From positions 1 through 43,859 of the IMG/VR virus record IMGVR_UViG_3300011244_000021: 43,859 nt of DNA, one strand, 5' to 3'. The position numbers and the translations under genes are program-made. The notes beneath the pieces are model-generated. The model saw only the letters and a program-made list of their open reading frames with translations, did not search any database and was not told where the DNA came from. The stretch is from a virus. This document shows, piece after piece, positions 5,998 to 43,859 of this stretch. Within the stretch, counting starts at the first letter, position 1. Each line of letters opens with the position of its first letter.

Positions 5998-6158
5998 ATC
6001 GCACTGCAACATGGGACTGGTCGGATCGGTACTGAATGACCCGAAGCGGTCCTCGCGTCGTGAAGCTGACGAAAGACGCGAGCAGTCAAAACCCGTCGCG
6101 AACACACGACAATGATATTGCGCCCATTGACGCGCGTTGCCACAAAATCCAGCATGGC

Positions 6159-14700: not shown

Positions 14701-14747
14701 CGTTCGGGAGATCGATTCAGGTGATGAGAGAGTGTAGGCGGGGACGT

Positions 14748-15209
14748 TCAATTCAGGGCGAAGATGCCGCCATTCAGTGCCGTGGCAAACGCGGTCCACG
14801 CAGCATACGGAATGAACAGCAACGCTGATGTGCGATCCGTCCACCACGTGGTGGCGATGAATGCCAGATTGACCACCACCAGCAGCGTGACGATCGCGAG
14901 CGCAAAACCTATCTTGTGTGCTGAAAAGAAAATCGGCGTCCACATGAAGTTCAATGCGAGCTGAACCCACCACAGAAGCATCGCGACCGATCGCGGCCGA
15001 ACGCGTGCCGTGCGCCAACCGGCAACCGCTATGAACACGTAGAGGAGTGTCCAAACCGGGCCGAACAACCAGCCCGGAGGCGTGAACTCAGGCTTTGCGA
15101 GTTCTGCGTACCAAGGTCCTGGCCTGTTGAGGAATCCAATTGCCCAACCACCTCCGACCACTAGGACGAGGAAGGCAACAATGAGGAGACGAGAACCAAG
15201 AGACCGCAT
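14748..15209 (-). CDS. tspO: TspO/MBR family tryptophan-rich sensory protein (153 aa)
   Basis: ATG at 15209 gives a normal length for TspO; the frame is open to a TTG at 15251. Five membrane segments are visible (LLIVAFLVLVVGGGWAIGFL first), with the conserved KPEFTPPGWLFGPVWTLLYV, the central ALNFMWTPIFFSAHKIGFAL and the C-terminal PYAAWTAFATALNGGIFALN. TspO binds porphyrins and sterol-like ligands and is linked to oxidative and light stress in alphaproteobacteria. It is not a phage structural or replication gene, and its place between the methyltransferase and the early operon suggests a lysogenic conversion gene. The aromatic and proline residues of the ligand site appear intact. Confidence 0.88.
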   Translation of the reverse strand: MRSLGSRLLIVAFLVLVVGGGWAIGFLNRPGPWYAELAKPEFTPPGWLFGPVWTLLYVFIAVAGWRTARVRPRSVAMLLWWVQLALNFMWTPIFFSAHKIGFALAIVTLLVVVNLAFIATTWWTDRTSALLFIPYAAWTAFATALNGGIFALN

Positions 15210-27071: not shown

Positions 27072-27080
27072 GCATCGCCC

Positions 27081-28250
27081 ATGCCCTCGCTAGATGATTA
27101 CGTCGATCGCGAGCAGGCCTACGTCAAACACATTTTTCTCGAGCGTTACCTTGAAGCACTGTTTCACAAGACAGGTAGCATCTTCGATCACATCGTCTAT
27201 GTCGACGGTTTCGCCGGGCCATGGCAAAGCGCCAACGAGCAATTCGGCGACACGTCATTCGGGATTGCGCTGAGCGCGCTGCGAAAGGCCAAGGCTTCGC
27301 TTCAACAGCGTCGCCGCACCGTGCGGATGACCGCCCTGCTGGTTGAGAAGAACGCCGAAGCACATGCGCGACTGGAGACGTTGCAGAGGCGCTATCCCGA
27401 TGTTGAAATCAAGACCTACAACGATGATTTTTGCACCATCGTGCAACGGATCGCCGATGACATTCCGCCCAATGCATTCGCCTTCTTTTTGATTGACCCG
27501 AAAGGCTGGAGCGTTCCACTTGACCAGATTCGCCCGCTGTTGAGCCGCCAAAAATCCGAGGTCGTCTTCAATTTCATGTTCGATTTCATCAACCGCGCGG
27601 CCAGCATGGGCGAGCACGTCACGCGCGGCCTCGACGAACTGATGCCCGGCAGCGACTGGCAGCGGCGCCTGCGCGAGGCGGAAGCAGCGTTCGGTCACTA
27701 CGGTTTGAGCGGCGACGATCGCAAGGAGGTCCTGGTCGGTGCGTTCGGCGACAGCCTGAAGCAGATCGGTGGTTACGCTTATGTGGCGGAGCTGACCGTT
27801 CTGCGACCGTTGAAGGATCGGCCTCTGTATTGTTTGGTTTACGGATCGCGACACGAGAGCGGCATCGAAGTGTTTCGCGATTGTCAGATGAAGGCGTTGC
27901 AGACGCAGGCCGAAATCCGTGCCCAGGGCAAGGTGAAGGCGACAGAGGTTAAGAGCGGCCAAAACGAGTTGTTCGAATCGATGCTCGACATGGCGCCCGA
28001 CCAGACCGAGGCCATGCTGGCGGAGGCAAAACAGAACGCGCGAGTCTTAGTGCTTGAGCTTGTGCCGCGCGTGCCGGGGGACATTACCTATAGGCGGCTG
28101 TGGGCGAGTGTGCTCGCGCAACATTCGGTGCGAAGAACAGACGTGAACAAGATTTGTGCCGCGATGAAGGATAGCGGCGAACTGCTGTTTCCTGACTGGG
28201 AGCCAGGCAAGCGCGTGCCGCAAGATCGCTATCGGGTCCAGCGCCCCTAG
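27081..28250 (+). CDS. tcmP: Three-Cys-motif partner protein TcmP (389 aa)
   Basis: ATG at 27081 lies nine bases after the DUF5131 stop, so the two form an operon. The N-terminal part, YVKHIFLERYLEALFHKTGS then HIVYVDGFAGPWQ, is the TcmP signature; VYVDGFAGPW resembles a nucleotide or SAM-binding loop, and AFFLIDPKGWSVPLDQIRPL looks like a D-P-x-G active-site strand of a methyltransferase-like fold. EVVFNFMFDFINRAAS and YCLVYGSRHESGIEVFRDCQ follow. The C-terminal 100 residues (YRRLWASVLAQHSVRRTDVN) look like a winged helix. The family is defined by its pairing with three-Cys proteins. The biochemical role is unknown; defence or modification is inferred from the island setting. Confidence 0.85.
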   Translation: MPSLDDYVDREQAYVKHIFLERYLEALFHKTGSIFDHIVYVDGFAGPWQSANEQFGDTSFGIALSALRKAKASLQQRRRTVRMTALLVEKNAEAHARLETLQRRYPDVEIKTYNDDFCTIVQRIADDIPPNAFAFFLIDPKGWSVPLDQIRPLLSRQKSEVVFNFMFDFINRAASMGEHVTRGLDELMPGSDWQRRLREAEAAFGHYGLSGDDRKEVLVGAFGDSLKQIGGYAYVAELTVLRPLKDRPLYCLVYGSRHESGIEVFRDCQMKALQTQAEIRAQGKVKATEVKSGQNELFESMLDMAPDQTEAMLAEAKQNARVLVLELVPRVPGDITYRRLWASVLAQHSVRRTDVNKICAAMKDSGELLFPDWEPGKRVPQDRYRVQRP

Positions 28251-28297: not shown

Positions 28298-28401
28298 CGC
28301 GCCTCCTTTGTTTTCGCTGGATCACGAAGCCTTCGCTTTTCTGCTGTCGTATCTTGGCAATGTCGCCTATCGGCAATTTCAGAGTATTGCCGAGCATCGA
28401 C

Positions 28402-28605
28402 ATGCACAACGAGATGAAATGCGTCATCGACCGTATGACCGCAGACGAGCGCCTCGACGAGGTCGCCGAGATCCTGGCCGCCGGCCTAATGCGGCTGATG
28501 TCGCGACAGTCCAGTCCTTTATCTGCCGACTCCGGAGAAAGTTCGCTCGACTGTCCTGCGGACCAGAGCGGTCATGCCAACGTCCTCAAGGGAGGCTTGG
28601 ATTGA
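28402..28605 (+). CDS. Small conserved protein of the DUF2924-recombinase module (67 aa)
   Basis: The recognisable part is MTADERLDEVAEILAAGLMR, followed by LMSRQSSPLSADSGESSLD. I recall such proteins directly before DUF2924 genes in many Rhizobiales. The start is uncertain (ATG at 28360, 28402 or 28435, none with a clear ribosome site). Its stop overlaps the TTG start of DUF2924. Function unknown. Confidence 0.6.
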   Translation: MHNEMKCVIDRMTADERLDEVAEILAAGLMRLMSRQSSPLSADSGESSLDCPADQSGHANVLKGGLD

Positions 28606-29045
28606 CCGATACGGTGCTGACGCGGGTCGCGGCGTTGAAGACGCTGCCGATCCCCCAACTGAAACAGCAATGGCGCGATCTCTTCGAGAGCGAGCCGCCG
28701 CCCTATAACCGCCGCTTCCTCGAACACCGGCTCGCCTATCGGATTCAGGAACTGGCCTATGGCGGACTGAAGCCCGCGACCGTCGCGCGGCTACGACAGT
28801 TGGCCGAGGATCTCGACGGCGGTGACCCAGCCAATCGCCGGCGCCACCATCAGGATCGCCCGATGCCGGGCACGCGGCTGATCCGCGAATGGCAGGGCGT
28901 CGAGCACTGCGTCACGGTGCGGGACGACGACTTCGAATATCAGGGCCGACCCTTCAAGTCGCTCTCGGCGATCGCGCGCGCCATCACCGGCACGCAGTGG
29001 AACGGCTGGCTGTTCTTCGGCCTCAAGCACCGGGGCACGCCGTGA
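28602..29045 (+). CDS. DUF2924 protein (147 aa)
   Basis: The start is a TTG at 28602, with AAGGGAGG six bases upstream and a TTGA overlap with the preceding gene; the open frame further upstream is a shadow. The protein shows LKTLPIPQLKQQWRDLFESE, PPPYNRRFLEHRLAYRIQEL and GTRLIREWQGVEHCVTVRDD, then FEYQGRPFKSLSAIARAITG and WNGWLFFGLK, the complete DUF2924 pattern. The second half resembles a DNA-binding domain of the SPD/PWWP-like 'phage-associated' type. It always seems to accompany this serine recombinase, with which it overlaps by GTGA, so it is probably an accessory DNA-binding factor. Confidence 0.85.
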   Translation: MTDTVLTRVAALKTLPIPQLKQQWRDLFESEPPPYNRRFLEHRLAYRIQELAYGGLKPATVARLRQLAEDLDGGDPANRRRHHQDRPMPGTRLIREWQGVEHCVTVRDDDFEYQGRPFKSLSAIARAITGTQWNGWLFFGLKHRGTP

Positions 29046-30355
29046 AGAAGCCGGTCGTCCGAAAACTGCGCTGTGCGGTTTACACCCGCAAGTCCAGCGA
29101 AGAGGGCCTCGAGCAGGAGTTCAATTCGCTCGATGCTCAACGCGAGGCCTGCGAGGCCTACATCGCGAGCCAGAAGCCAGAAGGGTGGGTACTCGTACCC
29201 GATCGCTACGACGACGGCGGCATCTCGGGCGCGACATTGGAGCGTCCAGCGCTGAAGCGGCTGCTTGCTGATATCGAGCAGCATCGCGTCGACGTGGTCG
29301 TCGTCTACAAGATCGACCGTCTCAGCCGCGCCCTGATGGACTTCTCAAAGCTGGTCGAGGTGTTCGATCGCAACAACGTCACCTTCGTCAGCGTCACGCA
29401 GTCGTTCAATACGACCACGTCGATGGGCCGGCTGACGCTCAACATCCTGCTGTCATTCGCGCAGTTCGAGCGGGAGGTGATCGGCGAGCGCATCCGCGAC
29501 AAGTTTGCCGCCTCGCGGAAGAAGGGGATGTGGATGGGCGGCTTCGTGCCGCTTGGCTACGACGTCAAGGACCGCAAGCTGGTTGTGAACGAGGCAGAAG
29601 CCGAGACCGTCCGGCGCATCTTCGAAAAATTCACGAAAACCGGATCGGTGACCAAGCTGGTCCGGGCGCTGCGAGATGAAGGCGTGCGCGGCAAGCGCGG
29701 GCGGTTGATCGACAAAGCCTATGTCTACCAACTCTTCCGAAACCGAACTTACATCGGTCAGGCCGTTCACAAGGGCGTCTCTTATCCAGGTGAGCACAAC
29801 GCGATCGTCAGCAAGGAGCTATGGGACAAGGTCTACGCCGTCCTCAGTCACGGGCCGCGACGACGCGCGGCGGCGACGAGGGCTCAGACACCGGCTCTGC
29901 TGAAGGGCCTCATCTTCGGCCCAACCGGCTGCGCGATGACACCGACCCACACCCGCAAGGGAGGGCGGCTCTATCGCTACTACATCGCCACCGATCTGCT
30001 GAAGCATGATGCGCCAGCATGCACCGTGCGGCGCGTGCCGGCCGCCGAGATTGAAGGCGCGGTGCTCGATCAGGTCCGCGGCCTCCTGCGCTCCCCGGAA
30101 ATGATCGTGCGCGCGTGGCGCGCGGGCAAGCGCCTCGTCGCCGGCCTGGACGAGTCCGAGGTCCGCGCCGCCCTGCAGCGGCTCGATCCCGTCTGGAACG
30201 AGCTGTTCCCGGCCGAGCAGGCGCGCGTCGTGCAGCTGCTCGTCGAGCGCGTCGACCTCAGCCCGGACGGCGTCGAAATACGACTGAGGACCGAAGGACT
30301 GGCGAACCTAACCGCGCAGTTGGATGCGGTCAGGCCGGAGCAGGGGGCTGCCTAA
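29042..30355 (+). CDS. Serine site-specific recombinase (437 aa)
   Basis: GTG at 29042 overlaps the DUF2924 stop. The resolvase domain has CAVYTRKSSEEG with the nucleophile Ser18, SLDAQREACEAYIASQ, YDDGGISGATLERPAL, VVVYKIDRLSRALMDF and FNTTTSMGRLTLNILLSFAQ, then FEREVIGERIRDKFAASRKK. The Recombinase domain follows (GFVPLGYDVKDRKLVVNEAE, FRNRTYIGQAVHKGVSYPGE), and a shortened zinc-ribbon-like part (PTGCAMTPTHTRKGGRLYRY...CTVRR) with only two cysteines. At 437 residues it is on the short side for a large serine integrase. It could be the prophage integrase or the engine of a separate module; the fixed association with DUF2924 favours the second. Confidence 0.9.
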   Translation: MKKPVVRKLRCAVYTRKSSEEGLEQEFNSLDAQREACEAYIASQKPEGWVLVPDRYDDGGISGATLERPALKRLLADIEQHRVDVVVVYKIDRLSRALMDFSKLVEVFDRNNVTFVSVTQSFNTTTSMGRLTLNILLSFAQFEREVIGERIRDKFAASRKKGMWMGGFVPLGYDVKDRKLVVNEAEAETVRRIFEKFTKTGSVTKLVRALRDEGVRGKRGRLIDKAYVYQLFRNRTYIGQAVHKGVSYPGEHNAIVSKELWDKVYAVLSHGPRRRAAATRAQTPALLKGLIFGPTGCAMTPTHTRKGGRLYRYYIATDLLKHDAPACTVRRVPAAEIEGAVLDQVRGLLRSPEMIVRAWRAGKRLVAGLDESEVRAALQRLDPVWNELFPAEQARVVQLLVERVDLSPDGVEIRLRTEGLANLTAQLDAVRPEQGAA

Positions 30356-30804
30356 TGGCAAAACCGAAGATCAAGAGCGACGGCCGCACCATCACGGTGC
30401 GCGTGCCGATTTCGATACGCAGGCGCGGCGGACGAAAGCTTGTCCTATCACCCGACGGCACACCCGATATAGGGCCAGTGATCCGCCGACGCATCGACAA
30501 CGCCATGGTCAAGGCGGTCGCCCGGGCGTTCCGCTGGCGCGAAATGATGGAGAGCGGCACCCACGTGACCATCGCGGAGATCGCCGCAGCCGAGAAGATC
30601 AACGAGTCCTACGTCGGTCGCGTCTTGCGATTGACCCTGCTGGCACCGGACATCGTCGAGGCGATCTTGGAGGGGCATCAGTCGATGAATATGACGCTAG
30701 CGATGCTGATGCGGCCGTTTCCGGCGAATTGGATCAGCCAGCGGGCCTCACATTTCGAATCGAGCGCGCATGTGAGAGCAAATTTACAAGACGCGGCGGC
30801 TTGA
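30355..30804 (+). CDS. HTH protein of the serine-recombinase module (149 aa)
   Basis: ATG at 30355 overlaps the recombinase stop (TAATG). The N-terminus MAKPKIKSDGRTITVRVPIS, then IRRRGGRKLVLSPDG, is basic. An HTH follows, VTIAEIAAAEKINESYVGRV, and the next helix LRLTLLAPDIVEAILEGHQS resembles a KorB/ParB-like second helix. The tail FPANWISQRASHF ends the domain. Co-translation with the recombinase and presence of an HTH point to a directionality or regulatory role. No experimental function is known to me. Confidence 0.75.
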   Translation: MAKPKIKSDGRTITVRVPISIRRRGGRKLVLSPDGTPDIGPVIRRRIDNAMVKAVARAFRWREMMESGTHVTIAEIAAAEKINESYVGRVLRLTLLAPDIVEAILEGHQSMNMTLAMLMRPFPANWISQRASHFESSAHVRANLQDAAA

Positions 30805-30840: not shown

Positions 30841-31956
30841 ATGACAACAGCCCTCGCATACGATAAGAATTACGCGTTCAACGCAATATGCCCGTATTAC
30901 ACGATGTTTCCGCTGGAGTACCCGCTCCAGATCATCCGGAAACACAAAGCCGACGCTCCGATCATACTCGATCCGTTCTGTGGCCGAGGGACGACGATCT
31001 ACGCGGCGCGTAGGCTCGGCCTGAAATCGTACGGCTTCGACACCTCGCCGATCGCTGCTGCTATCGCGCGAGCGAAGCTCGCAAGTGCCTCGCTGCAGGA
31101 AGTGATCGCACTCGGCGATAAGCTTGTCGCCAAGTCGCCGAAAGATGTACCCGAGACCGCGTTCTTCAAGCGGGCCTTTTCCAAGACCACGCTTCGTGAG
31201 CTGTGCTGCCTCCGAGAAGGATTGCTGGCGGAGAAGAAACCGTCCGACGCATTGGCAATCCTGCGAGCGGCAGCGCTCGGGTGCCTGCATGGACCGATGG
31301 TCAAGAGCGACGGGACTCCGAGCTACTTCTCTAATCAAATGCCACGCACCTTCGCGTCGAAGCCGGACTACTCGGTTCGTTTCTGGAAGGAGCGAGACCT
31401 TTTTCCGCCCAAGGTCTCGGTCATGGACGTGATCAGAAAAAAACTGGAACGCATTGCGGACCTGGACAGCGATACGCATGGCCGCCCGCGCAATGTCAGA
31501 TGTTCCGATGCGAGAAAGGCCAAGACTTTTGCCGGCATTACCGGCTCCACGCTGACCATCACGTCTCCGCCGTATTACGGCATGCGCACTTACGTACAGG
31601 ACCAATGGCTGAGAAACTGGTTCATAGGCGGCCCCGAGGAGATCGACTACGACAGCCCCGACCAGCTCTGTCACACCGGACACGACGCCTTTATTGTGGA
31701 TTTGGCGAAGGTCTGGAAGAACGTTGGCAAGCACTCAATTGAAGGTGCGCATCTCTATGTGCGCTTTGGCACGTTGCCATCCGCCAAGAGCGATGCGAAG
31801 TATCTGCTCAGAAGCTCCCTCGAAGAAGCCGGACGCTGGGACCTCATATCGGTTAGGAACGCGCAGACAGCCAGCGCCGGAAAACGGCAGGCCGATCAGA
31901 TGGGCATGGAATCCGAGCCCTCGGAAGAATACGACTTCCACGCTATCCTCAACTAG
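30841..31956 (+). CDS. DNA methyltransferase with SPPY motif, probably N4-cytosine type (371 aa)
   Basis: The SAM-binding motif I is LDPFCGRGTTIYAARRLG, with DPFCGRGTT at residues 44-52; the catalytic motif IV is TITSPPYYGMRTYVQDQWLR near 240, SPPY being typical for N4-cytosine enzymes. The order I then IV sets it apart from the two class-beta enzymes of the window. A long region between the motifs (about 100-235) would hold the target recognition domain. It is on the plus strand, 36 bases after the recombinase module, and its TAG shares the palindrome CTAG with the stop of the convergent Dna2-like gene. It could protect host DNA from that nuclease. Confidence 0.8.
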   Translation: MTTALAYDKNYAFNAICPYYTMFPLEYPLQIIRKHKADAPIILDPFCGRGTTIYAARRLGLKSYGFDTSPIAAAIARAKLASASLQEVIALGDKLVAKSPKDVPETAFFKRAFSKTTLRELCCLREGLLAEKKPSDALAILRAAALGCLHGPMVKSDGTPSYFSNQMPRTFASKPDYSVRFWKERDLFPPKVSVMDVIRKKLERIADLDSDTHGRPRNVRCSDARKAKTFAGITGSTLTITSPPYYGMRTYVQDQWLRNWFIGGPEEIDYDSPDQLCHTGHDAFIVDLAKVWKNVGKHSIEGAHLYVRFGTLPSAKSDAKYLLRSSLEEAGRWDLISVRNAQTASAGKRQADQMGMESEPSEEYDFHAILN

Positions 31957-34900
31957 TGCCACCGTACTTCACCGTCCCTGAAAGTACCGTCCAGCTCGAT
32001 TTTCACTGAGGCACGCTTGCCGCAGAACTCCTCCAGATACGACTTGATTGCGACGGACGTTTCTGCCGCCGCCTGATCGGTCGGCAAATGATACGCCAGC
32101 GACTTCGGCATCAACACGATGCACTTCGCTTTGGCTCGTGAGACGGCGACATTCGTCCGCTCTAGTTGCAGGAGAAATTCCTCCTCGCCTTCGATGATGT
32201 CGGTGTCACCAACCCCGAACGACACGATGATCGTATCGCGCTCACCGCCCTGAAACCGCTCGACGGTATCGACCGCGCTAAAAACCAGCTCGGGATTGGC
32301 CTTTGGAAACAACTCCATCAGCTTGCGCAGCACGAGGGCTTTTTGCGCCTTGTGCGGCGTGACGATGCCGAGCCCTCGTTCAAAAAACTCGTCGTCGGTG
32401 AACAGCACCGTCTTGTTCGTGACCCCGATGTTCAGGTCTTTTCCGATGGAATGCCGCACCACAAAGGCGAGGCCGGCGACTAGTCCGGCCTCGATCTCGT
32501 TCGCCTGTGACGACGTGGGATCGTCATGGATGAGCGCGGTCACGCGTCGCTCAGGCACCAGCAGCTCGCGATAGGCGTCCGTCTTAGGTAGGTTGGCAGG
32601 CAGCGTCTTGATCACGTCATCGAGCGGGACCACTACCTGCAAATCCTTCTGTTTTGTTGCCGCGCTCAAGCCGGGCGGGTAGCCCAACGACTTCGCGTAA
32701 TCGACAAGGTCCTGATTGGACCGATAGTTGACCAACAGCGGCTCCTGCCGGACCGTAAAACGGCTGATGAGATAGCTTTGAATGCTGTCCACCAGGTGCT
32801 CGGCCCCCTTGGGCGGCTCCAGTTGCTGGATCGGTGGCATTTGCTTGTGATCACCAGCGATGATGATCTGACCGTCGGGCCTGAGCGCTGCCAAGGGCCG
32901 CAAAGCCAACGTGACCGGGATTTGCGAGCTTTCGTCGAGGACCACCAAATGGAACAGCTCGTCAAGATACGACATCTTCGATCCGGCGCGCTGGGTCAGT
33001 TGATGCACCATATGCGCCGTCGTCGAAATGATGGTTGTGCGCTTGTCGTCGGCCATGCTCTCCAGCAATTTGCCGAAATCCGGATCGTTGCTATCGAGCG
33101 GCACGCCTTTCAAGGTCAGATGCTTGGCGTTCGACGTGAGCGCCTTCGCGCCGCGCGAACGTGAGTAGAGCCAGTAGAAGTCGCATGTTGCGGCCGCATC
33201 GCCTTCAAGGTTCTTGGCAAGGCGGCCCGAGAGTTCTTCCGCCGTCCGGTAGTTTGGGCCGGCGATCAGAATCTTGCGCGGCTTCCCTTCACGAACGACC
33301 GCATGCAGAAATGCGACCAAAGTATCGGTCTTGCCAGTACCCGGAGGACCCCAGACGATCACCAGTTGCTGCTTGGCGCAGGCCTTTACGGCGTCGATCT
33401 GGCTTGCATTGAGTGTGTACTCATTCGCGTTGGTCGCAAACTTCGCGAGCGCCTGCACCTCCTTGTCAGCCCGAACGACTGCCTTGGCGAGCTGGTCGGC
33501 CTGCCACAAGACGCGCGCGACAGGCGTGCTTGCCCCGGTCCCTTTGGGAAGTTTTTTGGCCGCCGATGTACCCATCGCGCGCAATGCTTCCGGCGCGGGC
33601 GATGCAACAGTGGGATCGCCGATCTCGATCAGAATGTCGGTCGTCGATTTGGAATCATCATAAGGCATTCCCTCAAGCAGATACACCGGCGCTTTTCCGA
33701 TCGGGATCAAGCCCGAGGCCATGACAGCTTGGAATACGGCATCGACCCCGCCCCAGCGCGGTTCAAACTGCACAACAATCCGTTTGCCGACCCGATCGAA
33801 GTGATCGAACGTCGCCAACACGACCTTGTGCATCGGCGTGTAGGCATATTTGTTGTCGGTGGGCAGGCCCAGACCGAGCGTGTGCGCGGACTGCAAAGGA
33901 AAGCCCGGCCATCCGACAATGCCGAGCGTGCACCAATCGCCTTCCTCGATTTTCGCTTCGGTCGAATCGTCGCTGACCTCGAACTCATAACGGAACGAAC
34001 CATGATCCTTGACGAGCTTGGTGAGGATGATCGCCTTGTAAGATGCCTCAAGCCACTCAGCGCGCGTGATCTGCGCGTTTAGTCCTTCCGTGCGTGCGAC
34101 GGCCGCAGAGACTTTCGACCAGCGATCCCAAAGCTTGGAATCGTAGGCCACTGCCGAAAGCCCTGTGGGGATGGACATGGACAGTTCAGGCGCATTGCCG
34201 TCGATGCAGTCCTTCAAGTCAGAACGCAACCGCGCGGTGATGCTGGCGATGGCCCAGGTATGGGCCTTCAATGCGGTCCCGTAGCGCTCACTTGCCTCGA
34301 CGATGCTCACCGTCCTTCCAAACATCCGGACGGTTCCCGTCGTGGATTTCCAAATCTCGAAAATCCGCTCACGCGGCACGCCGTTACCCAGCGGCTCGAC
34401 GTAATAGCTGTCGATATTACGCGGCGTCATCTTGTCATGGTGGTAATGCTCGGCGGTGCCCAGCAGCGTGGTCGCAAAGCGCTGCGGCTGACGGACCGCC
34501 GCCATCACGATGTCCCTGATAAAAACGATATTCGGACAGATGCTGTCCGACTTCTCGAGCAACTCATCAGGTGGGAAGATCCACGCGAGCGCACGTTGGA
34601 ACCGTCCGGGCAGCTCAAGAATGCTCAACAGATGGCGGCCAAAAGCGTTGCACAGTTCCTCGTACTGGCGCAGTTCCCAAAAACAAATCTGGGTGCGCAA
34701 CGTACCGAACGTTTGCGCTTTGAACACCTTCTCGGCATCTTCAATCCACGTCGCCAGCTTATCGATGAAAGCCGACACTGCCGCCCATTCGGCTTGCAGG
34801 TTGTCCTTCCCGACGACAAAGGCCGCTTCACCCAAAGACTTGAATGATTGCGATTGCGCACCGCCCACTGCCGGGAACTGTTTGCCGTAGGGCGCAAACA

Positions 34901-36215
34901 AGATACCCCGCAAACCGATTCCAGTCAGAAATCCCGAACCAGCGTCGAAGTTGACGACAATGTCGTATTCGGCACTCTGCCGCTTCGCGAGTCCGCCGAC
35001 CTTCGAGCTTTGATCCACCGTCGTGGTGTTGCTCGCGATGGATGCCGCTCGCGCACCAATCTGGCCGCGATCTTTCTTGAGCAGTGAGTGACGGCGCAAG
35101 ACATCCGCATCGGGAGCGATACCGATAAGGTTTGCCACCTTCGGATGACCCCCCTTGCCGAGAACGTGGCTCGCGCCCTTGCTCAGGCTCGCCATCTTCG
35201 AAAGATGGTCGGTCGCTTCAGCGTTGCGCGAGCAGTAATGCTCAGGATGCGCATCAAAGTGGTTGCGATCATCGGGAGACAGCCACGTCCTGTTGCCGAG
35301 CCAGTCGCAAGAACTGCAACGCGGATTGACGTGATACTCGACCGACGCCCAGCCCTCCTGGTCGCCCTGCTGCACGACACGCGGCAGATCCTCGGCAAAA
35401 AACTTGCGAACGCTCGGCATGTAGATCAGATAATTGACCCGGCCTTCCTCCAAATCGTTCTGAAGCGCGGCCAGCCTTTTGGCGTGGTCACCGCCTTCCT
35501 TGGTTCCCATGATCTTGCTGAAGCGGGGCATTTCGATGTGCCGCCACAGGTACACGCGATCCGAGACGAAGAAATTCTTGAGGAATGCCTTGCCAGCCGA
35601 ATGCAGCCAATTCGAAAGGAAAACGGCATACAGACAGACTTCGGCCGAATAGCTCGCGTTCGCCTCGGTGATGTTCTTGAGATCGATGACGCAGAGCGCC
35701 AAGCGCTTGTCATCGTCCGGCAACAGTCGTCGACTGCCATCGGGTAAAATTTCATACTCCACCGCGCGACGCTGATCAGCGAGAACAACATCAGGCCGCA
35801 GTCCCGCCAGCTGCGGAATGAACGCGAGATTCGCTTTGCTGACACCAAGATTGGGAAGCGCGACATCGCGAAAATGTTCCGGCTCAAGCTCGGGCTGAAG
35901 GATCAGTGTCGGCTTAGTGAGTCCAGTCAGCGACTTTGCGATATCGACGTTTGCCCGGCCATTGCTCTTGTGAATCACGTTGTTCGGGAGGGCGGTGATC
36001 AGAATATCAAATTGATCATATTCGAACTCGCGGCCCGAGGCCGTGATCAACTGGACGCCGGGACGTGTTTTCAGCGGAACTGGAATGCCGGCTGCGGAAA
36101 GCTGCGCCGGGTTGTTCGAGAACAGTGACAGGTAGAGTTCGCGATCGCAGAGCGTCCGCAAGTACATCGAGAACTTGCTCTTGGAAACGGCGCGCTTTGG
36201 CAATACCTGAGTCAC
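31953..36215 (-). CDS. Dna2-like fusion: Fe-S RecB-type nuclease plus SF1 helicase (about 1420 aa)
   Basis: No ATG lies near the expected N-terminus; GTG at 36215 is chosen, with TTG at 36269 as a longer option (1438 aa; numbering below uses it). The nuclease part has Cys41 in SMYLRTLCDRELYLSLF, RPD at 158-160, VIDLKN at 194-199 (the D-x-K), and three cysteines C318, C321 and C346, a one-plus-three iron staple. After a long middle region (about 350-950) the helicase has Walker A VWGPPGTGKTDT near 972, LVVLDESSQIP, AGDHKQMPPIQQL, VNYRSN, ERFQGGERDTIIVSFG and NVAVSRAKAKCIV. The order nuclease-helicase equals that of eukaryotic Dna2. It probably degrades unprotected or branched DNA. It follows Res after about 240 bases. 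Confidence 0.82.
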   Translation of the reverse strand: MTQVLPKRAVSKSKFSMYLRTLCDRELYLSLFSNNPAQLSAAGIPVPLKTRPGVQLITASGREFEYDQFDILITALPNNVIHKSNGRANVDIAKSLTGLTKPTLILQPELEPEHFRDVALPNLGVSKANLAFIPQLAGLRPDVVLADQRRAVEYEILPDGSRRLLPDDDKRLALCVIDLKNITEANASYSAEVCLYAVFLSNWLHSAGKAFLKNFFVSDRVYLWRHIEMPRFSKIMGTKEGGDHAKRLAALQNDLEEGRVNYLIYMPSVRKFFAEDLPRVVQQGDQEGWASVEYHVNPRCSSCDWLGNRTWLSPDDRNHFDAHPEHYCSRNAEATDHLSKMASLSKGASHVLGKGGHPKVANLIGIAPDADVLRRHSLLKKDRGQIGARAASIASNTTTVDQSSKVGGLAKRQSAEYDIVVNFDAGSGFLTGIGLRGILFAPYGKQFPAVGGAQSQSFKSLGEAAFVVGKDNLQAEWAAVSAFIDKLATWIEDAEKVFKAQTFGTLRTQICFWELRQYEELCNAFGRHLLSILELPGRFQRALAWIFPPDELLEKSDSICPNIVFIRDIVMAAVRQPQRFATTLLGTAEHYHHDKMTPRNIDSYYVEPLGNGVPRERIFEIWKSTTGTVRMFGRTVSIVEASERYGTALKAHTWAIASITARLRSDLKDCIDGNAPELSMSIPTGLSAVAYDSKLWDRWSKVSAAVARTEGLNAQITRAEWLEASYKAIILTKLVKDHGSFRYEFEVSDDSTEAKIEEGDWCTLGIVGWPGFPLQSAHTLGLGLPTDNKYAYTPMHKVVLATFDHFDRVGKRIVVQFEPRWGGVDAVFQAVMASGLIPIGKAPVYLLEGMPYDDSKSTTDILIEIGDPTVASPAPEALRAMGTSAAKKLPKGTGASTPVARVLWQADQLAKAVVRADKEVQALAKFATNANEYTLNASQIDAVKACAKQQLVIVWGPPGTGKTDTLVAFLHAVVREGKPRKILIAGPNYRTAEELSGRLAKNLEGDAAATCDFYWLYSRSRGAKALTSNAKHLTLKGVPLDSNDPDFGKLLESMADDKRTTIISTTAHMVHQLTQRAGSKMSYLDELFHLVVLDESSQIPVTLALRPLAALRPDGQIIIAGDHKQMPPIQQLEPPKGAEHLVDSIQSYLISRFTVRQEPLLVNYRSNQDLVDYAKSLGYPPGLSAATKQKDLQVVVPLDDVIKTLPANLPKTDAYRELLVPERRVTALIHDDPTSSQANEIEAGLVAGLAFVVRHSIGKDLNIGVTNKTVLFTDDEFFERGLGIVTPHKAQKALVLRKLMELFPKANPELVFSAVDTVERFQGGERDTIIVSFGVGDTDIIEGEEEFLLQLERTNVAVSRAKAKCIVLMPKSLAYHLPTDQAAAETSVAIKSYLEEFCGKRASVKIELDGTFRDGEVRWH

Positions 36216-36458
36216 TGAGCTTTCCCGGACCAATACGCGAATTCCCGAGGCGCCCAAACGTCGCGACAATGCGGGACTCGCGTGCGGACACTATACCCGC
36301 AAGGTCGCAAGAGAAAGGCTGAACCCACTTGGGCTCATTGGCGCCCCAAGCTTTGTCATACGCACCGAACCCCACCGCCTTGCCGGCATGTCCGCGAGGT
36401 ACATTTACGTCAGTAGACAGGCGCCTCATCAGGCCTTGCCGATTTATAAGTGCATGAC

Positions 36459-39197
36459 CTAGTGATCAGGCCTAAGTCTGAATTCATCCTGCGCCCTGCT
36501 GACTTTTGGAGCCGTAGATGCACTTTTCTCGTGCTGTTCGGCCGTTACTATGCGTTCAACAAATTCATCAAATTGCTTTGCCGTCAAAATCTCGTATTCA
36601 AAAAGACTGTTTGAAGCCAGTTTTGTTGCGGCCTCTTTCTTCGCCTGGACAATCGGGTCGTCAAGCGTCCATTCATTTTTTACCTCGACGATGATTGATC
36701 TGCCTGCCTTGGTACAAACGAGAAAATCTGGGTGATAGTTTCTTACTGCATGGGACGCTGGATCGATGTAATTCACCTGAAATCCCGACTGACCATGTAC
36801 CAACATCCCAGTGAAATAGATTTTATCAACTTCGTCGAGCGAAAGAACCCGTTTGAAAAACTCAAGCTCTGGTTTGCTATCAAAACAATAGGCGTCAAGA
36901 TGGAACGTCTTCGCCTTGGCAGTAAGGTAGTCAGGATAATCTCGCTTTGCGAGAAGGTGTTCCTTCGCCCGAAATCGAAAACTCGGAAGCATATTACTTT
37001 TGGCGTTGTATCCCCGGATTAGCTCGACCTCTTCCGTCTCGGTTTTTGAGAATGAGTCGATTCTAAAGAATGCTTTGAACAAAGCGGGGACAAGCACATC
37101 ATAAACAATCCGATTGTTGAAGTTGGCCGCCCAAAGAACACGCTCTGCTCCTTCCTTAGACGAATCAATCGCTTGTTCGATGTCGAATGGAGAAAGACCA
37201 TCAAATTGAAAATACCTGGCGAGGTCGGCCGTTAGAGTGTAGCGGCTATATTCCCGTCGAGCTAATTCTGAGGTGACATCGCGTGTTTCCGTTGCCGCCT
37301 CATTCAACACACGATGTGTTGCCACCGTGACGCGATATTGATCGACGCGCTCGTCCGTTAGACCAAAGTCGATTTGGTCGATCTTATCGCGGCGTTTGCT
37401 CTCGTAGAGTACGCGCTCTCGTGCAAGCTTTAGGATCACGGGCGGAGGGACTGCGGATACATCCACAATGACGGTTTCGGATTTATTGCGCTCCAGTTCT
37501 TCCCGAGTGACGCGGAAGTTCTGTTGTAGTTCGGCTTCCAAGACCGCGCCGTTTGCCTCCGACAAAAAGATGTGGCCCGTTTCCTGGATGTCACCGATCG
37601 AACGCAAACACCTCATCGTCGATTGGAGGACGAATATTTTCGATCTCGGCTCGCGATAAAGCGCGACCCCAAAAAGGCTTCGACAATTCCACCCCTCTCG
37701 TCCTTTGCCAACGAGAATAATGAACTGTTTTTCCGACCGCTCAGTATCGAGCTGTATGAATTCACGAATATCATCGCTCGTGGTCAGTTTGTCATCTCCG
37801 ACATTAACCAGGACCCGGCTTGTTGGAATGCTCAGCTCCGTCAACACCTGCTCAATGGCCGGCCGTAACTCGTCCCTAACCTCTTCAATTGTCGAACCGA
37901 AAAAAGCCAACTTGGGCAACATGCCCTCTCGGCGCGAAGTTCCCTCCTTTTTCCAAAACTCCTTAATGACGGTTCGAACAAAATCGTCTGATTTGATCTC
38001 GCCTCGATACACTGCAAACCGAGGCTGCTTCAGATATTCGTTCGCGATCGCGTTTTTGAGACTGTAGGCGTAGACCACCTCCGGCATGATCTGATCGCCA
38101 ACATAGGGCGTACCAGTAAAATTGTAACAAGCGATAACGCTTGAATTCTTTGCCTTCAAGGCCTTGGCAAGCTCATCAATCGTCGTCCGCAGCGCTGATG
38201 CGGTTTTGTCTTGACCAAGGTCTTTGGCCAACGTAGCGCCCATCGAGTGATGAGCTTCATCGACGTAGATTCCCAAACGCGGCAGACGAGCCAACTTTTG
38301 GAAACGTGCATTTACAGCAAGATCGGCATCAGATTCTGGCGCAGGCTGACCGATGAGCTCATATAGTTCTCCATAGATCTCCGAGAGCCCGCCGGTTTTG
38401 GCTGCAAACAGTTGATCAGTGACGCTGGGCTGTGCTTTGCGCTTCTTCAGAATAATCTTCTGGGTGTTTGAGATAACGATATTAAATTGTGAGCCATCCA
38501 TCGTGCCGAGGCCGACAGTTGTCTCGTCGAGAAAATGAAACTTGATATTGCTCGTGATGAAGTTCACATACTCCGGTGGGACGACCTTTGCGATGTCGAA
38601 TGTTTGAATTTCCTTCAAGGATTGCAAGACGGTTCTGTCAGGCGCGAAGACAAGAGCGTTCTGGCAATAAACCGGGTCCTTCCGCCATTTGTTTGCAAGC
38701 AAAAACTCATAAAAAATGCAGGTGGCCATTAGGATGGTTTTGCCAGTGCCCATGGTCAACGCAAAGATGTAATTCGGGTAATCCCGTGCGCGTGCCTTCA
38801 GATTGTTGAAGATAGCCTCATATTGTTCCTGGCCGTGTAGCTCCATGTAGGGCAGCAACGTGGCTTGTCCTTGGTCGGTCAGTCCGGTTGTAACGAAGCC
38901 GTCGAAGATGCCCTCGTTCTTTGCCCATTCCTCGAAGAGCTGATGAACATGCCGATTCTCAGCGAACTCTTTTAAGAACACGTAGGTTTCGAGTGCCTCG
39001 AACTGTGGGCGACGGAAGAAGGCCTCGCTCTCATCATCTCCTGGATCATTGAAGTCGAGAAATTTCTTGGTCAGGTCACGATAGCGCTTTCTTAGCGCTG
39101 GGTTGTTCGCCTGCTGGAAATTGGTCAGGCTGTTGAAGAAGGCGAAGTCGAGAGAAATTGCTGCCTTTGATTTCTTCTTGCCGGGAGCTTTAGCCAT
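36459..39197 (-). CDS. Type III-like restriction subunit Res: SF2 helicase plus PD-(D/E)XK nuclease (912 aa)
   Basis: The SF2 motor has FALTMGTGKTILMATCIFYE (Walker A 149-154), ALVFAPDRTVLQSL, VISNTQKIIL, DEAH at 313-316 in GIYVDEAHHSMG, CYNFTGTPYVGD (motif III) and LVGKGREGWNCRSLFGVALY (motifs V-VI region), then QSTMRCLRSIG. The C-terminal nuclease shows YHPDFLVCTKAGRSIIVEVK at about 825-845. The layout matches type III Res. It starts eight bases inside the end of mod. Its DNA is visibly poorer in GC than the phage genes. All motor and nuclease motifs look intact. Confidence 0.88.
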   Translation of the reverse strand: MAKAPGKKKSKAAISLDFAFFNSLTNFQQANNPALRKRYRDLTKKFLDFNDPGDDESEAFFRRPQFEALETYVFLKEFAENRHVHQLFEEWAKNEGIFDGFVTTGLTDQGQATLLPYMELHGQEQYEAIFNNLKARARDYPNYIFALTMGTGKTILMATCIFYEFLLANKWRKDPVYCQNALVFAPDRTVLQSLKEIQTFDIAKVVPPEYVNFITSNIKFHFLDETTVGLGTMDGSQFNIVISNTQKIILKKRKAQPSVTDQLFAAKTGGLSEIYGELYELIGQPAPESDADLAVNARFQKLARLPRLGIYVDEAHHSMGATLAKDLGQDKTASALRTTIDELAKALKAKNSSVIACYNFTGTPYVGDQIMPEVVYAYSLKNAIANEYLKQPRFAVYRGEIKSDDFVRTVIKEFWKKEGTSRREGMLPKLAFFGSTIEEVRDELRPAIEQVLTELSIPTSRVLVNVGDDKLTTSDDIREFIQLDTERSEKQFIILVGKGREGWNCRSLFGVALYREPRSKIFVLQSTMRCLRSIGDIQETGHIFLSEANGAVLEAELQQNFRVTREELERNKSETVIVDVSAVPPPVILKLARERVLYESKRRDKIDQIDFGLTDERVDQYRVTVATHRVLNEAATETRDVTSELARREYSRYTLTADLARYFQFDGLSPFDIEQAIDSSKEGAERVLWAANFNNRIVYDVLVPALFKAFFRIDSFSKTETEEVELIRGYNAKSNMLPSFRFRAKEHLLAKRDYPDYLTAKAKTFHLDAYCFDSKPELEFFKRVLSLDEVDKIYFTGMLVHGQSGFQVNYIDPASHAVRNYHPDFLVCTKAGRSIIVEVKNEWTLDDPIVQAKKEAATKLASNSLFEYEILTAKQFDEFVERIVTAEQHEKSASTAPKVSRAQDEFRLRPDH

Positions 39198-41160
39198 TGA
39201 CTATGCTTCCTTCCCAGGATTCGGACAGAACATCAGTGATCTTGACTCGAATCGTGCCTGCATCCTTGGGGATTGCGTAGCGACCCTTGACCAGTTCCCC
39301 TTCCTCGGGGTTGTCGATTAAGAGAGGCGACAAAACCGCGCCATCATAATTCCAGTCGATCTTCACCGTCTCAACAAGCTGGCGCCAATCGTCGACCTTT
39401 TCCACCGAGAGCTTCTGCAGAAGATTCATGGGGTAAAACCCCGCGATCACAAGCTCTCCAGTTTTGATCGAAAGCTTTGCGTCGGCCCCTCGCTTGAAAT
39501 GCAAATGCGATTTGTCGCGCAGAATGTCGACAACCTGCACTTCGATGTCAAAAGGCTTGGCCTGGAGCTTGAGATGCTCGCCAAGATCGGGCTCATGGCC
39601 CATGCAAACCAGCATGATCTTCTCGACAGGCTTACTCGGATTTTCGTTGCGTCGCTTGTCGAACGCCTTGAAGTCCAGATTAGTGGTGACCTCATTCAGG
39701 TCCTGACGTGTTGCTATGCGATTTACCGGCATGATCTTGACGAGAAAGCCGTCCTTTTCGCCATCGAACGCGATGTCCTGCGCTAATGGGTGAAGTTCCA
39801 AAGACTCTTTTATGAGCTGAGCGGCCTCGGCAGGATTCCGAAACAGATCGTAATCATTGACATTGAAAAGCTGGAACCCTCCATAAAAAGTAAGCGGCTT
39901 TTCAGCGACAAGAAGTTGATTTTGCTTCTCCTCGCCTTCTTCTTCTCGAATGCGATTGAGGCGCTCAATAGTCGTTTCGATCGCCCCGAGGTTGATGTCG
40001 GCTCCAATAAATCGACGCCCAAGCTTCATTGCCACTGCTTGAGTCGTGCCTGACCCCATGAAACAGTCAAAGACCAGATCGTCCGGATCCGTTGAAGCCC
40101 TAATGATCCTACTAAGCAAAACCTCTGGTTTCTGGGTTGGATAGTCGAGATTTTCCGCCGCATTGCCTGAAATAGCCGTGAAATCGCTCCATACTGACTG
40201 AAGTTCTACGCCAGGCATATCGTCTGCATATTGGATTGCGTTGGGTCGACCTTCTCCGTCCTTAGCCCAAACGATCCGCCCACAACTCTCCAATTCATTC
40301 AAGGCCGTCAGTGGGCTTTTTTTTGCCTTCTCAGAAAGATAGGAATTCAAAAAGCCCGGGATTGCCCAATGTCGCCCCTTCCCGATGTCGCCGGGGTTTA
40401 GTCCCTGCCAAGGAGAGCCAGATTCACCGGTCCGAAGTCCAGGCGCCGTAATAGGCGACTCTCGAAACAAACGACCAGAGGAATCCTTCTTGAAATTAGA
40501 ACTCAAATATTCTGGCGTATATGGCGTATGCTGAACCCGCCATTTAAATTCGTTACCCTTGGTATAAAAGAAGATCGTATCGTGGACATGATTGTAGTCA
40601 ACGCCTTCAGAACGTGCCGTCGTTCGCCTCCAGACTATTTCGTTCTGAAATCGATTCTGCCCGAAAATTTCATCGAGGACAATCTTGAGGTAGTGAGCCT
40701 TTCGATAGTCACAATGCAGATAGAGCGCACCAGTGCCAGACAGCAATTCCCGGCAGATAATTAGTCTCTCATAGACATACTGGATATAGTTGTCGTTCGT
40801 CCAAATGTCCGTATACTGCTTCTCTTCAAAAGACGAATAATCGGACGCCGCAGTTTTGTTTCTGACGGAAATTTTCTTTTTGTAGTCAGCCGCGCTATCA
40901 AACGGTGGATCAATGTAAATCAGGTCCACTGCACCTCTGAATTCCCGCAGGAGGTGGCTCATCACTTGAAGATTGTCGCCCCAAAAAATCTTATTCCACC
41001 ATCCTTCAACGGAATGGCCGTACTCTTCCTTTAACTGAGCGGGAAAATACTGCGTCGACGTGAAGGGGCGTTTGCCCATCCACCGCAGTTCCGGAAAGCC
41101 TCGGATGGGCTCAAGATCAAAATTGAATACTTCGAAAGCCTCGATCTTGTCCTTGGCCAT
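39190..41160 (-). CDS. Type III-like DNA methyltransferase Mod (656 aa)
   Basis: ATG at 41160 is used; an upstream TTG at 41193 would overlap the UvrD-like gene. Class-beta order: IYIDPPFDSAADYKKKI with DPPF at 84-87 (motif IV), LYLHCDYRKAHYLKIVLDEI, EIVWRRTTARSEG, then DYPTQKPEVLLSRII and DCFMGSGTTQAVAMKLGRRF with FMGSGTT at 367-373 (motif I). The DPPF form is common in type III N6-adenine enzymes. The C-terminal 250 residues (LTFYGGFQLFNVNDYDLFRN onward) have no motif that I recognise and are longer than in standard Mod; they may contact Res. It is coupled to res by an 8-base overlap. Confidence 0.87.
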   Translation of the reverse strand: MAKDKIEAFEVFNFDLEPIRGFPELRWMGKRPFTSTQYFPAQLKEEYGHSVEGWWNKIFWGDNLQVMSHLLREFRGAVDLIYIDPPFDSAADYKKKISVRNKTAASDYSSFEEKQYTDIWTNDNYIQYVYERLIICRELLSGTGALYLHCDYRKAHYLKIVLDEIFGQNRFQNEIVWRRTTARSEGVDYNHVHDTIFFYTKGNEFKWRVQHTPYTPEYLSSNFKKDSSGRLFRESPITAPGLRTGESGSPWQGLNPGDIGKGRHWAIPGFLNSYLSEKAKKSPLTALNELESCGRIVWAKDGEGRPNAIQYADDMPGVELQSVWSDFTAISGNAAENLDYPTQKPEVLLSRIIRASTDPDDLVFDCFMGSGTTQAVAMKLGRRFIGADINLGAIETTIERLNRIREEEGEEKQNQLLVAEKPLTFYGGFQLFNVNDYDLFRNPAEAAQLIKESLELHPLAQDIAFDGEKDGFLVKIMPVNRIATRQDLNEVTTNLDFKAFDKRRNENPSKPVEKIMLVCMGHEPDLGEHLKLQAKPFDIEVQVVDILRDKSHLHFKRGADAKLSIKTGELVIAGFYPMNLLQKLSVEKVDDWRQLVETVKIDWNYDGAVLSPLLIDNPEEGELVKGRYAIPKDAGTIRVKITDVLSESWEGSIVNG

Positions 41161-41180
41161 CTGATTCCCCCGACCAAATG

Positions 41181-43859
41181 TTAAGCGCGACAAAAGTTCA
41201 TGTCACAATAGGCGCGGAAGTCGCAATTTCGGCACAGCTTCTCCGGCCGTTCGTTCAATCGATAGTCCTTGGCTACGATCTTCTTGACCACTTTGTCCAC
41301 GGCTTCAATTGTACCTTTCACATCGGACCGCGATCGGTCGAACGTAATCCTCGGGTTGCCCGCCTCCTCACTGGTATAATACAGTGTCATACGTCGGACC
41401 GTGATGCGGCGTTGTTCCTCCAGAAGATGCGCGTAGATTTGCAACTGGCGGCGATATCGATCGATCTTTTCCTTATCGTCGAACATGTCGGGCTTCTTTT
41501 CCGACTTGAAGTCGACGATCTCGTAACTGCCATCATCGGACTGCACCAAGTCGACGGTACCTTGGAGTATGTAGTCCGGTTTCAAAAGCGATAGTTCGAC
41601 TTCGGCGTCCTTTAAGCGATGCCAATTTGAGCGTTCTCTTTCAGCATAGCGTTGCACGTGCTGTTCAGCAATTCTAAGCACCGGTTCGGCCAAGTAAGTA
41701 CGCTCCCTTTGGCTGATGTTATTGTAGTTCGCGCGGAACCATGACGATATTTGTACGGGTGTCACGCGGCTCTCGTCGCCACGCAATACGCTTTTGTGGA
41801 TGTCTTCGATCGTTTGATGAACGAGCGTACCGAACAAGATCGCGTTGGTGCGAACCGGTGAGAAGTCCAAATCTTTGAAGAAGCGGTATTGCTGTGCGCA
41901 CCCTTCGAACACCAAAACATCGGATGTAAACGAATAAGCAGTTTTCAGATTTACATCCTTCACCTCAGCCAAGATGGTGCGTGCGGGGTCGAACGTTAGT
42001 TCGTGCGAAGGCCTCAATAGGTGATAGACGGGACGAAAATAGGCAGAAGGGACATTGCGCTGGCCCCTTCCCCTCGGTGTGTTTTCCTGCGCCGTCAATA
42101 CCAGCATATTTTGAGCACGCGAAAAGGCCGTGTAAAACAACCTCCAAAAATCAAAGGTCTTGGTCCGATCCCAGGGCTCGAACGGCTCTCGATCATCAAA
42201 TGTCTGTTGAATCAGAATATCGAGATCGCTGTGTTGTTTGCGCGGCGATGCATCTAACGACCCAACGATGACGATGGGAAACTCCATTCCCTTTGATTGG
42301 TGAATCGTCATCATCGACACACAGCCAGACGGCGCGTATTCTGACTCGTCCTCATACTCTCCGATGCCGCCGTCAACGAGGAAGCGCAGGAAGATATTAA
42401 AAAACATCAGGAGGTCTCGCTCCAGTCGGTCCGGCTGAAAGACGATGACGCGATAGAGGTATTCGTATTTATTCAGGAGACGAGAAAACTTTGACAAATT
42501 TCGCGCTGGCCTGCTGTCGCGAACGCCTGAATGCGCAATGTCCTCCCCTAAGTATCGGCTGAAGGTCGGAAACTGCAGGAGTTGGTAGAACAAGCCTGAG
42601 AACGCGTAATTGGTATTCTCAGACAGCCCAATATGCGTTTTCGCGATACTGATGAGCCAAGAACTGATCTGGGTGTCGAAACCTGACTTGATGTGCGACA
42701 GGAAATCCTTCAGACACGCGTCGTAATAGGCCCACACATCCAATTGTAGGCCTTCCCGTACCTGTCGAACTGACCCGTATTGAGGGAACATTGTGAGAAA
42801 TGCGCCGATCATGAGCCTTATTTCTTCGCGTTCGAAGAACATGTTCGAGCGCGGTGCATAGATGGGAATTCCGCTCTGTTCCAACGTTCGGGCGAATTCA
42901 ATGACCTTGTCATTTCTCACTGAACGAAAAAGGAAGGCGACCTGGTTCCAATCCTTGATTATTCCGTCTTTGCGACGGTTCATCAAAAACGTTGTGACTT
43001 GATCCGCCCAGTCGTTTTGTCCGTCTTTGCCAGCGACCTTGAAAACTGCCGGTCGATCCGCTCGGTCGTGACTTGCTGACCTGATTTTCTTGTCAAAGCG
43101 GTATGATTTCGTGGCCGTACCATCGTGGCTAGGCGCGGAACTCCAATCCGTCAGGTGCATCCAACCATTGCAAAAGTCGACGATGGCGGGATGAGACCTA
43201 TAATTCTCAGTTAGATAAACACGCTTGCAAGAACCCGGCGAGAATCGCTGGGAGAATTCCAGAATGTTGCGAATGGACGCTCCTCGAAATCGATAAAGCG
43301 ATTGATCGTCATCGCCGCATACACAGATATTGTTCGCGCCGTTACCAAGCTTCAGAATGATCTTTTCCTGAATGGTGTTAGTGTCCTGATATTCATCGAT
43401 CATCAAATAGTCGAACCTATTTTCAAGCTCTTTGCGCACCTTCTCATGAGAAAACAGTTTTAACGCCTCGACCTGTATCGTCGAAAAGTCAATGGCATTA
43501 TTGCTATCGAGAAGCTCGAGATACTTGTTGTAGGCTGATCCGAGAATGTGAAGCTCCGGAATGTCGGATGCTCCGAGAGTATTGTGATCGATACCTTCCT
43601 CACTCAATTTATTTAGGCGATTCATCAGCGCTTCTGCGAACCACCAGCTTGATACGTTCTGGCCAGGGAAAAGTAGGTTTTCCAATTCTGGAATTGCGCG
43701 AAAGTCCCGCAGGTTTTGATAGAAGAAATACTGCTGATCGAACTGATCGAGCACGGTGTAATTGCGTCGGATACGGGTGAACGACCGAAACTCCTCCAGC
43801 AAGCGAAGAAAAATGGAATGGAGCGTGCCGATAGCCATGTCGGCCGGATTTACGGTCAT
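41181..43859 (-). CDS. UvrD/AddA-like helicase fused to a RecB-type Fe-S nuclease, N-terminus outside the window (892 aa visible)
   Basis: The visible part begins at motif Ib (MAIGTLHSIFLRLLEEF); the Q motif and Walker A must lie beyond 43859, so the Met at the edge is probably internal. Motif II YLMIDEYQDTNTIQEK lies near 152, motif III CGDDDQSLYRFRGASIRNIL near 187, LTENYRSHPAIVDF, motif V MTIHQSKGMEFPIVIVGSL near 523 and VI FYTAFSRAQNMLVLTAQ near 575. The nuclease has LFGTLVHQTIEDIH, ILQGTVDLVQ, YEIVDFKSEKKPD and YRRQLQIYAHLL. Cys in FEGCAQQYRFF plus CRNCDFRAYC form an iron staple. It resembles AdnA/AddA-type resection enzymes. It ends 20 bases before mod and is part of the same operon. 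Confidence 0.87.
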   Translation of the reverse strand: MTVNPADMAIGTLHSIFLRLLEEFRSFTRIRRNYTVLDQFDQQYFFYQNLRDFRAIPELENLLFPGQNVSSWWFAEALMNRLNKLSEEGIDHNTLGASDIPELHILGSAYNKYLELLDSNNAIDFSTIQVEALKLFSHEKVRKELENRFDYLMIDEYQDTNTIQEKIILKLGNGANNICVCGDDDQSLYRFRGASIRNILEFSQRFSPGSCKRVYLTENYRSHPAIVDFCNGWMHLTDWSSAPSHDGTATKSYRFDKKIRSASHDRADRPAVFKVAGKDGQNDWADQVTTFLMNRRKDGIIKDWNQVAFLFRSVRNDKVIEFARTLEQSGIPIYAPRSNMFFEREEIRLMIGAFLTMFPQYGSVRQVREGLQLDVWAYYDACLKDFLSHIKSGFDTQISSWLISIAKTHIGLSENTNYAFSGLFYQLLQFPTFSRYLGEDIAHSGVRDSRPARNLSKFSRLLNKYEYLYRVIVFQPDRLERDLLMFFNIFLRFLVDGGIGEYEDESEYAPSGCVSMMTIHQSKGMEFPIVIVGSLDASPRKQHSDLDILIQQTFDDREPFEPWDRTKTFDFWRLFYTAFSRAQNMLVLTAQENTPRGRGQRNVPSAYFRPVYHLLRPSHELTFDPARTILAEVKDVNLKTAYSFTSDVLVFEGCAQQYRFFKDLDFSPVRTNAILFGTLVHQTIEDIHKSVLRGDESRVTPVQISSWFRANYNNISQRERTYLAEPVLRIAEQHVQRYAERERSNWHRLKDAEVELSLLKPDYILQGTVDLVQSDDGSYEIVDFKSEKKPDMFDDKEKIDRYRRQLQIYAHLLEEQRRITVRRMTLYYTSEEAGNPRITFDRSRSDVKGTIEAVDKVVKKIVAKDYRLNERPEKLCRNCDFRAYCDMNFCRA

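Follow-up and report, generated by a model that had tools for sequence, protein, structure and literature searches.

Gene content of the locus

The window studied here, the whole 43,859-bp stretch listed as IMG/VR record IMGVR_UViG_3300011244_000021, is the final 43,859 bp of the 62,401-bp IMG/VR contig IMGVR_UViG_3300012668_000378. Its right part carries five candidate defence genes (Table 1): those for Res, Mod, UvrD and a Dna2-like protein, which are contiguous and all on the minus strand, and that for a DNA methyltransferase (MTase), which is on the plus strand and converges on them. An earlier, sequence-only reading had described these genes with their orientations and catalytic motifs, and gene calls and domain matches agreed with it, all being intact save for a truncated uvrD. 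It had also joined the five into one composite system, which was not upheld, as the gene sets are found apart elsewhere and differ in composition; its alternative, two stacked systems, proved to divide the genes exactly as proposed. The five genes are almost certainly two neighbouring, independent modules stacked by chance, termed here module A (UvrD, Mod and Res; 36459–43859) and module B (Dna2-like protein and MTase; 30841–36269).

Table 1. Features at the right end of the window
Feature	Position	Strand	Basis or remark
Amino-methyltransferase, 371 aa (module B)	30841..31956	+	Pfam N6_N4_Mtase, E 2.7e-10
CTAG, tail-to-tail overlap of the MTase and Dna2-like stop codons	31953..31956	.	4 bp
Dna2-like protein (module B): N-terminal Fe-S type PD-(D/E)XK nuclease, central region, C-terminal SF1B helicase	31953..36269	-	AAA_11/AAA_12, motifs
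Module boundary, ~243-bp spacer separating modules A and B	36216..36458	.	GC falls from ~58% to 50%
Type III Res, 912 aa (module A): DEAH ATPase and C-terminal TnsA-like PD-(D/E)XK nuclease	36459..39197	-	Pfam ResIII, Tn7_TnsA-like_N
Type III Mod, class beta, DPPF, 667 aa from TTG (module A)	39190..41193	-	Pfam N6_N4_Mtase, E 1.7e-47
UvrD-type SF1A helicase fused to RecB/Cas4-type nuclease (module A)	41181..43859	-	UvrD-helicase E 3.3e-37, UvrD_C, PDDEXK_1 E 4.4e-23, Cas4
DUF2924, large serine recombinase and small recombinase-associated (HTH-like) ORF	28308..30804	+	Flank outside both modules, apparent prophage end

Within module A, the Walker A, DEAH, PD and EVK motifs of Res are kept in 5 homologues, and Mod homologues on plasmids are 47.6–56.8% identical. 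The 8-bp overlap of mod and res reported previously was confirmed (ATGGCTAA). The 20-bp gap claimed between uvrD and mod stands if mod starts at an ATG near 41160, which is likelier than the listed TTG, but not with the TTG itself, from which mod overlaps uvrD. The 5′ end of uvrD is lost at the contig end: 892 codons are present and, compared to homologues of about 960 aa, some 75–110 N-terminal residues including Walker A are missing.

In module B, motif I of the MTase (DPFCGRGTT, residues 44–52) precedes motif IV (TSPPY, residues 241–245), and both are kept in 12 homologues. Motifs of this kind belong to N6-adenine/N4-cytosine enzymes; a structure model matched only generic Rossmann methyltransferases. 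By alignment, the Dna2-like protein probably starts near 36215 rather than at 36269. Its nuclease motif, IDLK (D196-L-K198), and four cysteines (C41, C318, C321 and C346) are invariant in 11 homologues, from which the N-terminal domain is predicted to be an iron–sulfur (Fe-S) nuclease of the RecB type. A central region of ~500 aa without a recognized domain follows, and the helicase, of superfamily 1B (SF1B), is nearest to IGHMBP2, UPF1 and DNA2. Fe-S RecB nucleases cut single strands, and SF1B motors run 5′–3′.

Two gene sets conserved separately

The sequence-only reading had proposed to check whether UvrD-RecB and Dna2-like homologues adjoin Mod and Res elsewhere; UvrD-RecB regularly does, whereas the Dna2-like gene does not. 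A UvrD-RecB relative was seen just upstream, and on the same strand, in 14/14 plasmid records of the window Mod family (those covering at least 80% of the window Mod). These came from Blastomonas, Nitrosomonas, Phaeobacter, Yoonia, Tunicatimonas, Vibrio, Enterococcus and Spirosoma, the last with two small genes between UvrD-RecB and Mod. The same UvrD family stands ahead of a different, longer Mod and Res in Priestia, and the cyanobacterium Annamia has a UvrD gene without annotated Mod/Res neighbours. Among 398 Pseudomonadota genomes, one full-length Res of the window family was found, again in a UvrD-Mod-Res operon.

None of the UvrD-Mod-Res loci inspected contained a Dna2-like gene. Conversely, neither UvrD nor a window-family Mod or Res was found within 10 kb of the Dna2-like/MTase pair in its relatives, and the window-family Res had no match in nine host genomes of those relatives, a search that was made without a positive control genome and is supporting rather than decisive. 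The composition of the window changes at the same border. GC content is ~58% over the MTase and Dna2-like genes compared to ~50% over Res, Mod and UvrD, and GC at third codon positions (GC3) is 0.715 in module B (1,811 codons) and 0.574 in module A (2,463 codons), a difference as large being reached in 0/2000 permutations. This step falls between the Dna2-like gene and res. The lack of co-occurrence elsewhere, together with the composition step, indicates a stacking of two modules.

A single composite, with type III cleavage carried on to complete degradation by UvrD-RecB and the Dna2-like protein and with protection from the second methyltransferase, would suit the four contiguous, co-directional genes, and at one other locus (L012) a type III pair also lies beside the Dna2-like gene. 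However, that pair belongs to another Mod/Res family and is divergently oriented, the gene sets are separate everywhere else, and the 0.14 difference in GC3 breaks at the module border. Furthermore, the start near 36215 leaves ~243 bp between the Dna2-like gene and res, which argues against their coupling. We consider the composite scarcely credible, and as a conserved entity the five-gene system does not exist. In agreement with the earlier statement that the set was not recognizable as BREX, DISARM, Druantia or Zorya, the defence-system caller PADLOC returned no system-level match for the five proteins, whose matches were all of a generic kind (helicases, nucleases and MTases). None of the proteins specific to BREX, DISARM, Druantia, Zorya, Gabija, Mokosh or Dpd (PglZ/BrxC, DrmAB, DruE, ZorAB, GajA, full-length MkoA, DpdA) appeared among these PADLOC results.

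Module B as a candidate restriction cassette

Scanning genome contigs with the Dna2-like protein of the window alone gave nothing, and a three-member profile gave 10 loci. In total, 14 Dna2-like loci were compared, comprising the window, Rhizobium and Bradyrhizobium plasmids, ten genome contigs and one further Bacteroidota genome. The relatives are 46–69% identical, full-length or partial, and the close ones belong to Alphaproteobacteria, Gammaproteobacteria and Bacteroidota. A convergent MTase adjoins the Dna2-like gene at 13/14 loci, including a fragmentary one (L017), one with an HNH_5 endonuclease gene inserted between the two (L018, 14382–15554) and one whose genes lie 20 bp apart (L020). 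The stop codons overlap by 4 bp in nine loci (CTAG, TTAG, CTAA or TTAA), an arrangement that the sequence-only reading had not mentioned for the window, and in 8/9 genomes the MTase family is single-copy and beside the Dna2-like gene. This pairing, and the absence of the MTase family from the Nostoc genome, argue that module B is a unit. The pair is rare: sampling of 385 Alphaproteobacteria, of 190 Gammaproteobacteria and of 194 Cyanobacteriota gave the centre genome alone in each set, and that of 395 Bacteroidota gave two genomes besides the centre genome, one of them divergent.

Two variants bear on function. One copy of module B (L135, 528–7151) has two methyltransferases of the window's family, the second transcribed divergently; perhaps each enzyme serves one strand of an asymmetric site. 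At another locus (L136, 5639–14810), four co-directional genes encode a beta-class SPPY methyltransferase, a Dna2-like helicase-nuclease, a NACHT/pentapeptide-repeat protein and a DUF4062 protein. Here a divergent full-length Dna2-like homologue (570 bits over the whole profile) lies directly 3′ of an MTase of another class, and the row as a whole resembles module B in an expanded form. Defence genes adjoin several relatives: Druantia-type genes (a DruF-like fragment and DruE) directly upstream at L014 (2–9130), AbiEi/AbiEii at L016 and L004, dGTPase at L011 and L004, and the type III pair at L012. These neighbours place module B in a defence context, and anti-phage activity would be expected of it.

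Other loci drew separate observations. On the Methylorubrum extorquens AM1 megaplasmid (L005, 14106–18528), a Dna2-like relative is split over two frames, by a frameshift or as two genes, and its neighbourhood showed no MTase. On a Mesorhizobium plasmid (L007, 7201–13089), a 32% identical methyltransferase ends a co-directional run that includes a ParB-like protein, with a helix-turn-helix (HTH)-NTPase gene beside it on the opposite strand, another context for this methyltransferase family. Distant helicase matches on plasmids were rejected as Dna2-like relatives, being DpdJ-sized or other proteins.

We consider it probable that the locus as a whole consists of two independent restriction-type modules, one type III (A) and one resembling restriction-modification (R-M) (B). 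In module A, Mod would recognize and mark an asymmetric site and Mod-Res would cut unmarked DNA; the UvrD-RecB/Cas4 helicase-nuclease, as accessory first gene of the operon, probably loads on the cut ends and degrades the DNA further. For module B, methylation-guided restriction is the mode of action that we somewhat favour, judging from gene content and motifs. The MTase would mark host DNA, and the Dna2-like protein, guided to unmarked DNA by its central region or by the MTase, would unwind it with its 5′–3′ SF1B motor and cut the strands with its Fe-S nuclease. An R-M role is suggested by the homologue at L136, placed right after a different class of MTase, by the locus with two MTases, and by Bad, a bacterial DNA2-like helicase-nuclease of Geobacillus stearothermophilus whose gene, in Geobacilli, was in every case found to adjoin a type III-like MTase (Wilkinson et al. 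2020, PMC7430649).

Several points weigh against this picture. Dna2-like relatives are scarce, as a two-pattern scan that covered 84,980 species found 10 loci, and in Nostoc the Dna2-like gene stands alone. A structure model of residues 19–945 reached a predicted template modelling score (pTM) of 0.38 with no fold match, the central region being unusable; this, and the lack of a recognized domain there, leave target recognition unsupported. Bad cleaves single-stranded DNA and prefers 5′ flaps and single-strand/double-strand junctions (PMC7430649), which also suits repair or an attack on replication intermediates. As for independence, the two modules may cooperate in this host.

That preference of Bad is one ground for supposing that replicating phage DNA (5′ flaps, forks) is the target of the Dna2-like protein, with the methyltransferase regulating it or marking host forks and no classical restriction site involved; the likeness of the helicase to IGHMBP2, UPF1 and DNA2 and the defence-island context would fit as well. 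We regard this as unlikely, as the strict pairing with an MTase of a site-specific type, whose class varies among homologues, is what R-M predicts. A housekeeping unit for DNA repair or epigenetic marking could be argued from Dna2 and AddAB relatives that act in repair, yet the pair is rare and patchy (besides the centre genomes, 0/384 Alphaproteobacteria, 0/189 Gammaproteobacteria, 0/193 Cyanobacteriota and 2/394 Bacteroidota) and occurs on plasmids and in defence islands, which makes such a role very improbable.

Prophage and probable host flank

The left part of the window is a lambda-type prophage with major capsid protein E, portal and gpA terminase. Its genes are followed by an S24 repressor, a DUF5131/TcmP pair, the recombinase module ending at 30804 and then the five defence genes, and the far contig end carries a gene for a host-like hydrolase. 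Since many related recombinase contigs stop 380–440 bp past the recombinase, the counterpart of 30804 in the window, with variable sequence beyond, and since 50,697 phage records contained no full-length Dna2-like homologue, both modules more probably belong to host DNA next to the prophage than to the phage as its cargo. The same records held one full-length UvrD homologue. A search for an attachment site gave only a 10-bp match at chance level, and no att site. If the modules were cargo, the prophage would shield its host from other phages; they do begin 36 bp past the recombinase module, with the MTase gene, and the contig is classed as viral. This location, which leaves function aside, seems rather doubtful given the contig ends, the phage records, the plasmid and chromosomal positions of relatives and the host-like hydrolase.

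Other genes left of the five also stand out. The pair between repressor and recombinase (26322–28250), which consists of DUF5131, resembling radical-SAM mobile pair A, and TcmP, a three-Cys-motif partner, matches the PADLOC candidates PDC-M30/M41. Two plus-strand genes at 6036–8561, flanked by the portal and terminase genes of the minus strand, read in translation as O-methyltransferase-like and pyridoxamine-phosphate-oxidase-like and are possible prophage morons. A prophage gene at 13474–15054 encodes a fusion of ParB-N and N6_N4 methyltransferase domains.

Comparison with known systems

Module A is a three-gene restriction system that has been in the literature since 2017 (PMC5704561). Hudaiberdiev et al. 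(2017; PMC5704561, Fig. 6) reported type III Mod and Res as the commonest conserved neighbourhood of a UvrD-Cas4-like fusion. Their fusion (UvrD helicase and pfam12705 nuclease) and its partners are those of module A, which has a UvrD-type SF1 helicase fused to a RecB/Cas4 nuclease and an adjacent class-beta DPPF Mod with a Res of DEAH ATPase and PD-(D/E)XK nuclease. The gene content is thus the same, whereas module A adjoins an unrelated pair and is truncated at the contig end. The type III systems Eco86II and BspHIV (PMC8259958, 2021) likewise have a third, helicase-like ATPase gene 5′ of mod, but theirs was called SF2-like and has no PD-(D/E)XK motif, unlike the SF1A UvrD-nuclease fusion seen here.

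Module B is a rarer, little-described pair. The TM0106-family and IGHMBP2-family nuclease-helicases and the Mokosh and DpdJ helicases have an SF1B core in common with the Dna2-like protein, a likeness limited to the helicase domain. To our knowledge, the motors of the ATP-dependent restriction enzymes described so far belong to SF2 and slide or translocate without unwinding. If our reading is true, a Dna2-like helicase-nuclease as methylation-guided restriction subunit would represent a distinct mechanism, and the role of bacterial DNA2-like proteins, left open in 2020, would be answered. Reading the locus as two modules also spares catalogues of defence systems a spurious five-gene entry.

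The closest comparison is with Bad. Prompted by the methyltransferase beside it, Wilkinson et al. suggested that it may represent a new type of restriction enzyme (PMC7430649). The enzyme (1245 aa, catalytic D150 and K815) contains an Fe-S cluster and combines a 5′–3′ motor with single-stranded DNA endonuclease activity, and the four-Cys pattern is what these authors call an iron-staple domain (PMC7430649). The Dna2-like protein of the window, at about 1420 aa, shares with it the N-terminal four-Cys nuclease, predicted from sequence to be of the Fe-S RecB type, an uncharacterized central region at the matching position and the C-terminal SF1B helicase, and both genes have a DNA methyltransferase gene next door. 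The partners differ: that of Bad is type III-like (GCCAT, N6-methyladenine), whereas that of module B has motif I before motif IV and is convergent, and the protein was therefore filed as Bad-like rather than as a Bad. The Geobacillus plasmid pBSO1 was rejected as a possible Bad locus, the MTase there being unrelated. By analogy, module B would fit the restriction-enzyme proposal with another class of MTase, as a variant of that kind. With the neighbourhoods described here, the hint first seen in Geobacilli reaches Proteobacteria and Bacteroidota, and clonable two-gene versions become available. More tentatively, and at a little under an even chance, module B, the L136 type with its beta-class MTase and Bad with its type III-like MTase may together form a separate R-M class, in which an unwinding SF1B Fe-S helicase-nuclease is the restriction subunit and MTases have been plugged in independently.

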